Below are positions 43,158 to 45,973 of a DNA stretch of 64,000 bases, piece by piece (position 1 is the first letter of the stretch; each line of letters starts with the position of its first letter). The translations under genes and the position numbers were made by a program. The stretch lies in contig NZ_JACRVF010000001.1 in NCBI RefSeq assembly GCF_014306105.1, positions 1,442,413 to 1,506,412 of the forward strand, in the 5' to 3' direction. Origin of the DNA: Pontibacter cellulosilyticus (GTDB lineage Bacteria; Bacteroidota; Bacteroidia; Cytophagales; Hymenobacteraceae). The notes beneath the pieces are model-generated. The model saw nothing but the letters and a program-made list of their open reading frames with translations. It did not search any database and was not told the DNA's origin.

Positions 43158-43363
43158 CCAACCACCCCTAACCCCTCCTTATCCAAGGCGGGGAACTGTA
43201 CTTACCACTTCGTCTGCTATTGCAATAGCAAAGGCTCTCTTTATGGTCATCCTACAAAGGATCTTGTATGAAGGGAGGTTGTGCAGCAGCTATACCACTT
43301 TTGCTTTTGCAGGAGTAATGCCTGATTCCCCGCCTTGGATAAGGAGGGGTTAGGGGTGATTTG
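43158..43363. repeat. 206-bp MITE-like element, second copy of the 40-bp inverted-repeat family
   Basis: The end repeats at 43158-43195 and 43326-43363 are inverse copies with about 36 of 38 matches, and nearly match the termini of the element at 25413-25647. The interior shares GCTATTGCAA with that element but is otherwise different. No gene lies inside. Confidence 0.8.
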
Positions 43364-43496
43364 ATCCGGTACTGCTGAAGAAGTAGTTTCACCCTCCCCT
43401 TCTATGTACCTACATTATTTTTAGTTGAAAATTTGGAATTGTAAAATTCGGGTGCAAACTTTGTAACCGTAAAGTCAATTACCCTCACAGGATTTG

Positions 43497-43597
43497 ATTT
43501 ATAAAGAAGAAGGGAGAGAACAGGCTCTGTGAACTTCTAGCAACCAGTTTAAAAACAAGGTGCTAATTCCTGCCTAAAAAATTTAGGGGATATAAAT
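43497..43597 (+). promoter_or_regulatory. SAM-I-type riboswitch (S-box)
   Basis: The P1 stem is ATTTATA (43497-43503) with TATAAAT (43591-43597). Inside are the S-box hallmarks GGGAGAGAACAGGCTCTGTG, then TAGCAACC, then AAGGTGCTAATTCCTGC. SAM-I riboswitches bind S-adenosylmethionine and turn off sulfur genes. P1 closes only 8 bases before the ATG of the poly-cysteine leader, so ligand binding could block leader translation. The downstream operon encodes an ATP-grasp ligase and an LLM monooxygenase. Confidence 0.85.
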
Positions 43598-43605
43598 TCA
43601 CAAAA

Positions 43606-43719
43606 ATGAAAATTTCAGCATCTCAACTTGCTGCCGCACAGGCAAACATTTTCAACCGATCGATTATCGGCACTACTTTACACACTTCACATTTCTGTTG
43701 TTGTTGCTGTTGCTGCTAA
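43606..43719 (+). CDS. Poly-cysteine leader peptide, 37 aa, putative cysteine-sensing attenuator
   Basis: ATG 43606 lies 8 bases after the SAM riboswitch P1 stem. The 37-codon frame begins MKISASQLAAAQ and ends HFCCCCCCC followed directly by TAA: seven consecutive Cys codons (TGT TGT TGT TGC TGT TGC TGC). A run of codons for the pathway product just before the stop is the hallmark of a ribosome-stalling leader. When charged Cys-tRNA is low, ribosomes would pause there and expose or block downstream RNA structure. Mixed TGT/TGC use argues against a simple trinucleotide repeat. Hairpins follow at 43732-43770 and beyond. The enzyme genes start 239 bases later. The regulatory role is inferred. 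Confidence 0.75.
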   Translation: MKISASQLAAAQANIFNRSIIGTTLHTSHFCCCCCCC

Positions 43720-43731
43720 CACAGCTGGGCA

Positions 43732-43770
43732 AAGTATAAGCTTTTTGTAGCACCTCGGTGCATTATACTT
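43732..43770 (+). promoter_or_regulatory. Hairpin in the leader region after the poly-Cys ORF
   Basis: AAGTATAA (43732) pairs with TTATACTT (43763-43770), enclosing an inner GCACC-TC-GGTGC stem. It begins 13 bases after the leader stop, a natural place for an attenuation structure. No U tract follows, so it is not a simple intrinsic terminator. Rho-dependent control or a translational effect is possible. Confidence 0.45.
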
Positions 43771-43958
43771 CTGCTGCAGTCTACTGAGTAGCACGGGCTT
43801 TCTGTATCCATACCTGAAAGCTTCAGGGGTTGCTGTATCCATACTTTTGGCTATACCGGCTCCTGCCCTACTCTAATTCTCAAGTCTTTTTCATTGCCAT
43901 TTCAGGTTACCTGTCCTCACCTGTCTGGCTATACTTATACTTTTAAATCAGAAATACT

Positions 43959-44939
43959 ATGTCTACGATAGTAAAACCAATTGCTATTTTCCATGAGCAC
44001 CAGGAGTGGTTCAAACCGCTTTTCAATGAACTGGAGCAGAACGAAATTCCATATGTTCGACTAGATGCTGCCCGCCACACTTACGACATTGCGGCACAGG
44101 ACATTCCGTACAGCCTGTTCTTTAACCGCATGAGCCCATCGGCTTACCTGCGAAACAACGAGAACGGCATTTTCTATACATTAAGCCTGCTGGCACACCT
44201 GGAGTCCAAAGGAATTCCGGTGGTAAACGGCTACAAAGCCTTCCAGTACGAGACCTCTAAAGCGCTGCAAATAAGCCTGCTGGAGAAACTGGGTTTGCCC
44301 TATCCAAAGTCAAGAGTGATTAACCATGCCTCACAAGCCATTGCTGCCGCAAATGGTCTGCGCTACCCAATTGTTGTTAAGGCAAATATCGGCGGCAGCG
44401 GCGCTGGCATCACCCGCTTCGACTCACAAGAGGAACTCGCACTGGCTGTTTCTACGAACCAGATCAACCTAGGCATTGATCATACGGCATTGGTGCAGGA
44501 GTACATCACCGCCCGCGATGGCCATATTACTCGCGTAGAAACCTTAGGTGGCAAGTACTTATATGCCATTAAAGTATACACCGACGGCGAAAGCTTTAAC
44601 CTCTGCCCTGCCGACATATGCCAGACAACAGGCGGTAAAGAGCTGGTGCGCAACGCCTGCGCTATTGATGCCCCCAAGAACGGTATGCGTGTAGAGGCCT
44701 ATACGCCACCGCAGGATGTGATTGATGCCATTGAAAAGATCGTGCAGGAAGCCGGTATTGACGTGGGTGGCATTGAGTACATGGTTGACGACCGGGACGG
44801 GCAATTGTACTACTACGATGTGAACGCACTCTCAAACTTTGTGGCAGATGCCGTGAACGTGATCGGCTTTAACCCGCATGCACGCTTGGTAGAATTTTTG
44901 GAAACTAAGGCTCAACTTAAACTGGAGGAGGTAAAATAA
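43959..44939 (+). CDS. ATP-grasp ligase (RimK-like), sulfur-regulated operon
   Basis: This 326-aa protein has an ATP-grasp fold. YPIVVKANIGGSGAGITRF carries the ATP-binding lysine and glycine loop. LVQEYITARDGHITRVETLG follows, and the metal site is IEYMVDD with YDVNALSNF. RimK-like enzymes join an amino acid to a carboxylate using ATP. The substrate here is unknown; location under a SAM riboswitch and poly-Cys leader suggests a sulfur compound. Its stop overlaps the next ATG by one base (TAATG), so the two genes are translationally coupled. Cytoplasmic. Confidence 0.88.
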   Translation: MSTIVKPIAIFHEHQEWFKPLFNELEQNEIPYVRLDAARHTYDIAAQDIPYSLFFNRMSPSAYLRNNENGIFYTLSLLAHLESKGIPVVNGYKAFQYETSKALQISLLEKLGLPYPKSRVINHASQAIAAANGLRYPIVVKANIGGSGAGITRFDSQEELALAVSTNQINLGIDHTALVQEYITARDGHITRVETLGGKYLYAIKVYTDGESFNLCPADICQTTGGKELVRNACAIDAPKNGMRVEAYTPPQDVIDAIEKIVQEAGIDVGGIEYMVDDRDGQLYYYDVNALSNFVADAVNVIGFNPHARLVEFLETKAQLKLEEVK

Positions 44940-45973
44940 TGGAATTCGGATATTGGTTGCCTGTTTTTGGAGGATGGCTCCGCAACGTGCCCGACGAAGG
45001 CATGGACACATCCTGGAACTATGTGAAAAAGCTGGCGCAGCGCAGCGAAGAATGGGGCTATAGCCTATCGCTTATTGCAGAGCTTTACCTGAACGATATA
45101 AAAGGAAAAGAGGCGCCCTCATTGGATGCCTGGTCTACGGCCGCGGCTCTTGCTGCCGTTACCGAACAGCTGGAAATAATGGTAGCAGTTCGTCCTACGT
45201 TTCACAATCCGGCTATACTAGCCAAGCAGGCAGCAAACATTGCTAACATCAGTGGTGGCAGATTATCGCTTAACGTTGTGTCGTCGTGGTGGCGCGACGA
45301 AGCTACCAAGTATGGTATCCAGTTTGAGCAGCACGATGATCGCTATGCCCGCACAAAAGAATGGCTTGATGTAGTAACGAACGTATGGGAGCAGGATCAT
45401 TTCTCTTACAGCGGCAACTACTACAACGTAGAGGATAACATTCTACAGCCCAAGCCAATTAAGAAGCCTTTTATTTACGCTGGCGGGGAATCTGAAGCAG
45501 CTAAAACGCTTATCTCCAGCCAGTGCGATGGCTATGTAATGCACGGAGATTCCCCTGAGCTCATCGGCAAGCGAATTTCGAACATGAGAGAACGCAGAGA
45601 AGCATTTGGCCTGCCTCCTATGAAGTTCGGTGTGGCAGCCTACAGCATCGTGCGCGACACTGAGCAGGAAGTGCAGAAAGAGCTCACTCGAATTACTGAC
45701 GTAAAAAGCTCTGCCGCCGGATTTGAGAACTACCAGCAGTGGTTAGCCGGCACCCAGCTAGAGGGGCAGCTCTCTTTACAGGAATACTCTGTATCTAACC
45801 GTGGCCTACGTTCTGGTTTGGTTGGCACACCGGCTCAGGTGCAGGACAAGATCGCTGAGTTCGAGGCTGTGGGTGTTGACTTCTTCTTGCTGCAGTGCAG
45901 TCCGCAGTTAGAGGAGATGGAGCGCTTCTCCGACTCTGTGATCAAAGCTCATACTTTGTCCGCTACTGCTTAG
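44939..45973 (+). CDS. LLM-class flavin-dependent monooxygenase (SsuD/SfnG-like)
   Basis: The 344-aa protein begins FGYWLPVFGGWLRNV, close to the dimethylsulfone/alkanesulfonate monooxygenase group. Further marks are RPTFHNPAILAKQAANIANI, SGGRLSLNVVSSWWRDEA and IYAGGESEAAKTLI for flavin and phosphate binding. These enzymes use FMNH2 and oxygen to release sulfite or methanesulfinate from organosulfur compounds. Control by a SAM riboswitch fits a sulfur-scavenging role. No dedicated flavin reductase gene is adjacent. It is coupled to the ATP-grasp gene by a one-base overlap and followed by a terminator. Confidence 0.9.
   Translation: MEFGYWLPVFGGWLRNVPDEGMDTSWNYVKKLAQRSEEWGYSLSLIAELYLNDIKGKEAPSLDAWSTAAALAAVTEQLEIMVAVRPTFHNPAILAKQAANIANISGGRLSLNVVSSWWRDEATKYGIQFEQHDDRYARTKEWLDVVTNVWEQDHFSYSGNYYNVEDNILQPKPIKKPFIYAGGESEAAKTLISSQCDGYVMHGDSPELIGKRISNMRERREAFGLPPMKFGVAAYSIVRDTEQEVQKELTRITDVKSSAAGFENYQQWLAGTQLEGQLSLQEYSVSNRGLRSGLVGTPAQVQDKIAEFEAVGVDFFLLQCSPQLEEMERFSDSVIKAHTLSATA

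Follow-up and report, generated by a model that had tools for sequence, protein, structure and literature searches.

The 5′ region of an ATP-grasp/monooxygenase operon of Pontibacter cellulosilyticus is very probably a two-input leader, in which S-adenosylmethionine (SAM) would gate the start of a short leader ORF and the charging of Cys-tRNA (or Met-tRNA) would gate its completion. As an anatomical and comparative fact, the stacking of a SAM-I aptamer on a Cys-ended ORF is well supported; the regulatory logic is our reading of sequence comparisons. The locus lies in the window, by which we mean the whole stretch of 64,000 nt that was analysed, and its parts are as follows.

43456..43463, + strand: candidate −7 box AAACTTTG, one mismatch to the Bacteroidota sigma-A consensus TAnnTTTG
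43496..43598, + strand: SAM-I (S-box) riboswitch aptamer, RF00162, 82.5 bits, full length
43599..43605, + strand: 7-nt spacer CACAAAA between aptamer P1 and leader ORF start, read from the sequence
43606..43719, + strand: leader peptide upstream ORF (uORF), ATG start, 37 codons plus TAA; position, frame and Cys tail are kept in orthologous operons with an aptamer
43696..43716, + strand: seven Cys codons (TGT TGT TGT TGC TGT TGC TGC), proposed Cys-tRNA sensor
43720..43958, + strand: post-uORF leader of 239 nt, C 61 versus G 43, proposed site of the expression platform; no + strand intrinsic terminator found
43959..44939, + strand: ATP-grasp protein (RimK-like), first gene of the operon; PF08443 2.6e-06, TIGR00768 3.9e-20 (below its cut-off)
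44939..45973, + strand: luciferase-like FMN monooxygenase (LLM), SfnG/SsuD-like, overlapping the ATP-grasp stop; PF00296 3.6e-58, TIGR04021 1.3e-71 (below cut-off)

Aptamer, leader ORF and operon at the window locus

A covariance-model search of the window returned the SAM-I aptamer over model positions 1–108, that is, at full length, with an E value of 6e-18 and a score far over the gathering threshold of 44.4 bits. The initial annotation had called this aptamer from the letters and had named such a search as its check; the call held, and its end, given as 43597, proved one base early. The 37-codon ORF that it had described, with seven terminal Cys codons of both kinds before a TAA, is likewise present, seven bases past the aptamer. 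It encodes the peptide MKISASQLAAAQANIFNRSIIGTTLHTSHFCCCCCCC, whose tail uses four TGT and three TGC codons and runs directly into the stop at 43717–43719. The two strands of the window together hold 663 ATG ORFs with 12 aa or more, and apart from this one none ends in more than 2 Cys residues, so a Cys-ended leader ORF is not to be expected by chance at this site. In the 4.61 Mb genome, the pattern of five TGY codons followed by TRR occurs three times (reversed control, 0), and the other two matches have no in-frame ATG, GTG or TTG start.

The 103-nt aptamer and the candidate −7 box (consensus from PMC9723704) both lie 5′ of the ATG, which argues for a long 5′ UTR. Boxes loosely resembling the −7 element stand 30–62 nt 5′ of the aptamer in 28 of 28 leaders, in a loose search run without a control. 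Further 5′ of the leader we noted a perfect 32-base inverted repeat, ACCCCTAACCCCTCCTTATCCAAGGCGGGGAA, with arms at 43164–43195 and 43326–43357 set 130 bases apart, which looks like a small repeated element.

Behind the leader, family models match both genes of the operon, in agreement with the initial annotation. Structural relatives of the monooxygenase in the PDB include 3rao (6.4e-120) and 8vw6, named an alkanesulfonate monooxygenase (2.6e-104), and through 8vw6 and the TIGR04021 match, which lies below its cut-off, the protein resembles alkanesulfonate and dimethylsulfone monooxygenases. The likely role of the operon is sulfur scavenging, the LLM family being the one reason for this assignment.

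The Cys-ended ORF accompanies the aptamer 5′ of ATP-grasp genes

We collected relatives of the ATP-grasp gene and kept the best 80 of 374 tblastn-confirmed stretches, taken from named records. A Cys-ended uORF was defined by three or more Cys among its final 6 residues, a position within 600 nt upstream and the same strand as the gene; a first scan near ATP-grasp genes, which demanded four or more Cys among the final 10 residues, had missed shorter tails. In these best 80 of 374, an aptamer lies 5′ of the gene at 13 loci, and all 13 carry a Cys-ended uORF, as against none of the 67 loci without an upstream aptamer, 65 of which have the full 600 nt. The conservation of the ORF at homologous loci, which the initial annotation had proposed to examine, is thus confirmed at the 13 loci that have the aptamer upstream. 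The tails of the 13 uORFs are, in terminal Cys residues or residue letters, 7, 7, CCFC, 7, 6, 7, 5, 3, 3, 3, 6, 5 and CCCWH. By record title, these loci span Pontibacter, Rufibacter, Sabulibacter and Nafulsella as well as the flavobacteria Gillisia, Salegentibacter and Salinimicrobium, and some of them coincide with loci of the 59-genome set described next. At L111, which belongs to the 67, an aptamer does occur, but downstream of the ATP-grasp gene and before a metH-like gene.

In the 59 genomes there are 11 close copies of the ATP-grasp gene (at least 78% identity) in 10 genomes, our own included. Eight further copies have the aptamer (L004–L009, L011 and L033) and all eight have the Cys-ended ORF, while L010 and L012 have neither; L010 (the same locus as L051) is the P. 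pamirensis copy, which stands without a leader. Short or impure tails also occur: RCCC in Rufibacter, HCCFC in L048, SCCCWH in L061 and VCCYCIS in L243. When these 600 nt are read on the other strand, 8 of the 80 loci show a Cys-ended ORF, and those of L070 and L117 are the leaders of divergent SusC-type genes. The opposite-strand short ORFs of L062, L063, L064, L069, L072 and L090 point away from the ATP-grasp gene and may be SusC-type leaders or antisense chance matches.

The tail is conserved while the rest of the peptide drifts

In ten same-genus uORF peptides, mean identity rises from 0.24 in the middle to 0.89 over the final six columns of the alignment, and there is not a single Cys in the 297 residues outside the tail. 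This is the pattern of a ribosome-mediated attenuator, a conserved codon run in a drifting peptide, and it is the outcome that the initial annotation had anticipated. The Cys codons vary in their third base (98 TGT and 61 TGC in the uORFs of the 28 leaders), a mixture at odds with slippage of a single repeat. A by-column count of the Cys codons covered 15 of the 28 leaders; L048, L061 and L009 were omitted, their tails not being pure Cys runs. A codon-position test for coding gave a mild signal for the metY uORFs described below (0.394/0.343/0.438) and failed for the cysH uORFs (0.471/0.395/0.431).

Five of the cysH uORFs (L365, L366, L357, L358 and L373) share the motif AVQHGCC. In L293 and L295 the DNA of this motif includes the self-complementary GCTGTACAGC, and this part of the leader may be kept as RNA and not as peptide. 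A further cause of the Met/Cys motifs described below could be the conservation of RNA structure.

Spread across SAM aptamers and gene classes

We then surveyed 130 SAM aptamers, a non-random sample made up of most of the best-scoring matches fetched from 395 genomes of the class, all aptamers of 20 genomes, some of which had been picked for poly-Cys patterns, and both aptamers of our own genome. Coordinates were taken from Infernal, an earlier rough regular expression having recovered 92 of 134 loci. A uORF that starts 0–20 nt past the aptamer and has at least 3 Cys in its last 12 residues is present at 21 of the 130 and absent at 109. As a control for the residue, we counted ORFs with the same start range in which a single amino acid takes up four or more of the final 12 positions: Cys accounts for 20, Leu for 4, Ile for 3, and Thr, Arg and Ala for 1 each. 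The P. cellulosilyticus genome (4.61 Mb in 13 contigs) has two SAM aptamers over the cut-off, that of the window and one other, which is followed by a gene that is metH-like by sequence motif and lacks a Cys-ended ORF by the 130-aptamer rule. Spacing is narrow: the uORF starts 6–12 nt past the aptamer in 26 of 28 leaders, and exactly 7 nt past it in 13.

An unselected count was obtained from genus g23, which belongs to the family of the window genome and for which all 67 aptamers listed for 15 genomes were used (G245 was previously known for such leaders). The rule here was 3 Cys in the last 16 residues. We assigned gene names from sequence motifs and checked a single member of each class by family models, except for ATP-grasp, whose representative has no NCBIfam match at 1e-20. 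Cys-ended uORFs precede metY in 15 of 15 cases, cysH in 9 of 9, the ATP-grasp gene in 5 of 5 and an amino-acid permease gene in 11 of 12; they precede metH in 0 of 15, and 3 of the 11 remaining class-less aptamers have one. Taken together, the four sulfur classes stand at 40 of 41 against 0 of 15 for metH (Fisher 1e-12, a value that ignores relatedness). Just short of the rule are the Cys/Met-rich ORFs of L397 and L401, before SusC-type receptors; L351–L354 and L356, with aptamers before other genes (in L354 a cystathionine gamma-synthase-like gene), miss it, and L413 has an aptamer without an ORF. Of the 43 uORFs, 40 start 7–10 nt past the aptamer, the script having picked the start that gives the most Cys.

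Methionine is a second recurrent residue. It is found in the last 16 residues of 15/15 metY and 9/9 cysH uORFs of g23, versus 3/11 for the permease and 2/5 for ATP-grasp (Fisher 1.9e-6, again ignoring relatedness). The metY/cysH tails of this genus often read RMRMRCC..CCCCC or HGCCGMM.., and those before metY in family f60 read CICMCCCCC, CMCMCCCCC and CCCMCMCCC. The metY and cysH leaders would hence report the charging of methionine as well as cysteine tRNAs, and the earlier proposal of a Cys-tRNA signal, right about the Cys codons, is too narrow for these two classes. Another SAM plus Cys7 leader, in family f82 (L201), precedes an operon for PAPS reductase, a member of the sulfite/nitrite reductase family and uroporphyrinogen methyltransferase.

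Cys-ended mini-ORFs also occur without an aptamer

We read the cysS loci of 30 of the 57 genomes with cysS, among them the locus that had prompted this search (L321, identical with L199). Nine of these 30 loci, which were read in one family, have a Cys-ended mini-ORF 56–79 nt before cysS, and the other 21 have none. The peptides include MRFYHLYCCCC, MILSSKYCCCCCC and MKIFYNTYCCCC, and no Rfam match was found in the nine loci that carry them. In two cysS leaders, L199 and L200 (the latter additional to the nine), the downstream gene matches TIGR00435 with 438 and 445 bits, and neither has an aptamer. Aptamer-free Cys-ended ORFs also precede SusC-type receptors (L070 and L117) and a PhyH-domain gene (L205). 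A sensor of tRNA charging fits what the cysS, PhyH, SusC-type and sulfur-operon targets share. Attenuators of this type stand before genes that make, import or charge the amino acid, and cysS, cysH, metY and the amino-acid permease gene are such genes. The aptamer-free mini-ORFs before cysS point independently to Cys-tRNA sensing.

The search for T-boxes (RF00230) gave no match in any of the 59 genomes, our own included, while the same search responds in 5 of 14 control genomes; at the gathering score there is none in the window either. A scan for Cys-rich ORFs at 40 loci, drawn from TAA/TAG-ended pattern matches and four loci of the first ATP-grasp scan, also yielded L186, L187, L190, L206, L213, L217 and L219, which have TTG starts only or no fitting gene and are probable noise. 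Four loci (L066, L070, L117 and L197) have a similar palindrome at the likely promoter just 5′ of the poly-Cys ORF, approximately TTTGTCTACCNAATTTAGTAGACTAAT with variants. It has the look of a repressor site, perhaps of the Rrf2/CymR-like kind.

Proposed mechanism and alternative explanations

The serial two-signal interpretation put forward in the initial annotation is supported by those of its predictions that can be computed, namely the aptamer score and the conservation of the tail, and by the co-occurrence, the spacing of 6–12 nt and the cysS mini-ORFs. We propose that SAM binds the aptamer and locks P1, which ends 7 nt before the ATG, and that ribosomes would in this way be kept off the leader ORF; given the fixed spacing, a SAM-stabilised P1 would lie inside the landing site of the ribosome, so SAM should block leader translation. 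When SAM is low the ORF would be translated, and the supply of Cys-tRNA would decide between passage and stalling at the terminal Cys codons, whose position at the very end of the ORF would place a starved ribosome beside the stop. With cysteine replete, the ribosome would leave, and the pyrimidine-rich RNA behind it would let transcription stop in a Rho-type manner, or the start of the operon would stay closed. Under cysteine starvation, the ribosome would remain on the Cys run and the operon would be made. The operon would thus follow AND logic and be expressed only if low SAM coincides with a shortage of cysteine (or methionine). The same device appears to recur in other Bacteroidota gene by gene: the metY and cysH leaders contain Met codons as well, and the metH genes examined go without the device. 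That it amounts to a sulfur regulon of Bacteroidota run through composite leaders, in which the SAM-I aptamer gates ORF start, the end codons set which shortage counts and Rho gives the readout, is a broader idea to which we give somewhat less than even chances.

Clusters for peptide modification can set a small ORF beside an ATP-grasp enzyme and a flavin monooxygenase. Such is the context of our leader ORF, and the Cys-rich peptide might be read as a product in its own right (a RiPP precursor, a metal-binding peptide or a sulfur store) that the two enzymes modify, with the riboswitch controlling a peptide operon. Yet 67 of the 80 ATP-grasp loci have no such peptide upstream, like peptides stand before metY, cysH, the amino-acid permease, SusC-type receptors and cysS, and the peptide body is poorly conserved; we consider this reading hardly credible, and rejected a RiPP precursor on the strength of its gene context. 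It is also unlikely that the leader holds two unrelated devices, an aptamer with its own terminator or direct action on the operon and a Cys ORF acting as a parallel attenuator. Aptamer-free Cys-ended leaders do exist before cysS, SusC-type receptors and the PhyH operon, and in the non-random sample most aptamers (109 of 130) lack a Cys ORF; against this, the interval between aptamer and ORF start, 6–12 nt in 26 of 28 leaders, is too short to hold a terminator, and before ATP-grasp genes the two co-occur strictly. There are precedents in other bacteria for uORFs and nascent proteins that report copper (PMC9426467; PMC9973294), and the poly-Cys uORF could in the same way sense copper, zinc or redox state through its Cys residues, or be an arrest peptide that stalls the ribosome through the nascent chain. 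The targets, however, are cysS and sulfur genes, Met codons join the Cys codons in the metY and cysH leaders, and little of the peptide body is conserved besides short group motifs, which makes such sensing very improbable.

Expression platform

Regarding the readout of the two-input leader, the hairpins that the initial annotation had seen after the ORF were not substantiated. A scan of 43380–43980 found no intrinsic-terminator-like site on the + strand and one on the − strand, inside the leader ORF. RNAalifold gave no post-uORF structure common across groups in five folded alignments, only structures shared by close relatives, such as ACACGT..ACGTGT after the metY uORFs of one family. As these alignments also lack a common hairpin with a U run, we rejected the intrinsic terminator model. 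Alternative terminator and antiterminator hairpins were thus not found; Rho-dependent and translational variants do not need them. We likewise rejected a sequestering helix formed between the Cys run and the leader 3′ of it, duplex energies equalling those of shuffles (mean z −0.11 in 38 leaders). A stop-spanning hairpin of at least 4 bp is present in 9 of 10 cysS leaders (combined p 0.012, mostly due to composition), in 16 of 32 SAM leaders (p 0.27) and in 1 of 5 others (p 0.96), a marginal signal confined to the cysS leaders.

The RNA after the uORF has a bias in composition. C exceeds G in 28 of 28 leaders, with a median skew of 0.23, as compared with −0.03 in 29 leaderless Bacteroidota-titled copies (MWU p 3.6e-9), 0.06 in 37 intergenic stretches of the window (p 2.2e-7) and 0.02 in 66 leaderless copies of all phyla; the pyrimidine content has a median of 0.617 and is at least 0.6 in 43 of 70 distinct leaders, versus a median of 0.50 and 12% at or above 0.6 for the RNA behind 510 other short ORFs taken from these loci (p 1.1e-19, a comparison that includes the leader L210 twice), and all these p values are too small because relatives are not independent. 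In g23, the metY leaders have a CU-rich tract about 20–45 nt past the stop, seen by eye and farther away than a ribosome positioned at the Cys codons would cover. Because there is no conserved terminator and the RNA is pyrimidine-rich with C over G, we take Rho-dependent attenuation as the leading idea for the readout, at the strength of a hint, and translational control as its main alternative. In the latter, the device would be the same and the stalled ribosome would open a structure that covers the start of the first gene. This mode is stated for the cysteine genes of Mycobacterium smegmatis (PMC13236596), and it would suit the cysS leaders, which are short at 56–79 nt from uORF stop to cysS; set against it are the missing conserved pairing between Cys run and downstream leader and a composition expected of Rho sites. 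The permease group is an exception to the latter, its g23 leaders having a C minus G of −0.03 in the first 50 nt after the stop and a median pyrimidine content of 0.567 (at least 0.6 in 5 of 11). On balance, we regard the translational platform as a possibility of some weight, and a doubtful one.

Relation to known systems

The SAM-I aptamer and the Cys leader are each known already. A close likeness to our leader ORF is seen in the poly-Cys leaders of actinobacterial cys operons (Seliverstov et al., 2005; PMC1262725), short ORFs with a Cys codon run near the stop that precede cysteine genes and, as described there, have no conserved terminator hairpin and a pyrimidine-rich stretch for which a Rho site is weakly suggested. 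They belong to another phylum, and the passages on them mention no riboswitch in front. The mycobacterial poly-Cys uORFs (Canestrari et al., 2020; doi 10.1111/mmi.14498) are described as leaderless short ORFs, probably a difference from ours. In the Alphaproteobacteria, uORFC-8-2 of Rhodobacterales (PMC8632094) also places conserved tandem Cys codons before cysS, with ribosome-mediated attenuation proposed; unlike our leader, it has two Cys codons, along with two stems and a U-run intrinsic terminator, and its description makes no mention of a SAM aptamer.

Other systems combine the two signals by different means. In Xanthomonas, the met operon has a SAM-I riboswitch to which uncharged initiator tRNA binds too, and an aptamer and a tRNA-charging signal thereby share one leader; there, however, the tRNA reportedly binds the expression platform directly, and no Cys-codon leader ORF is involved (PMC7270179). 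SAM and Cys-tRNA signals meet on one sulfur operon in the clostridial ubiGmccBA (PMC2940859), although this Bacillota case relies on a T-box RNA, together with antisense transcripts whose own promoter depends on an S-box. Contiguous riboswitches (PMC12452182) place two regulatory elements serially in one leader, these being aptamer plus aptamer or T-box; neither leader peptides nor terms in Bacteroid- occur in the main text. For Bacteroidota, the passages on leader-peptide attenuation in two transcriptome papers (PMC9723704; PMC7366714) treat it in general terms and name no cysteine genes. Full-text searches of open-access literature, which omits most subscription papers, brought up neither a SAM aptamer that directly targets a leader ORF sensing an amino acid, nor poly-Cys leaders from any Bacteroidota, nor the sparing of metH or the Cys/Met mix. 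Within that literature, the stack, the phylum, the metH sparing and the Cys/Met mix are what is new, and the statement of the initial annotation that it knew of no stacked example in Bacteroidota stands.

If our reading is true, this is a riboswitch whose regulated gene is itself a second sensor, and an RNA AND gate with its specificity written in codons. It would explain how SAM/methionine and cysteine are coupled in the control of sulfate assimilation, metY and uptake where no T-box was found (0/59 genomes), and it would make the regulon readable from sequence. The natural two-signal gate would even come with built-in controls, the metH aptamers without an ORF and the cysS ORFs without an aptamer.

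Other elements near ATP-grasp genes

Relatives of the ATP-grasp gene are widespread, the titles of the 374 tblastn-confirmed stretches including Planctomycetota, Acidobacteria, Gemmatimonadetes and Armatimonadetes. In a metagenome-assembled genome titled 'bacterium' (L120:2868-2942), a borderline SAM-II match (SAM_alpha, RF00521, 36.1 bits versus 36) lies directly 5′ of the ATP-grasp gene, a hint that SAM control of this operon may exist there separately. Between the uORF and the gene of L203, some 40–80 nt before the ATP-grasp start, we noted a long palindrome, TTTATCTAACTAATTGACAATCAGTTAGTTAGATAAA, perhaps an internal operator or promoter. Finally, a Flavo-1 RNA (RF01705, 59.7 bits) is located downstream of the ATP-grasp gene at L077:5973-6056.
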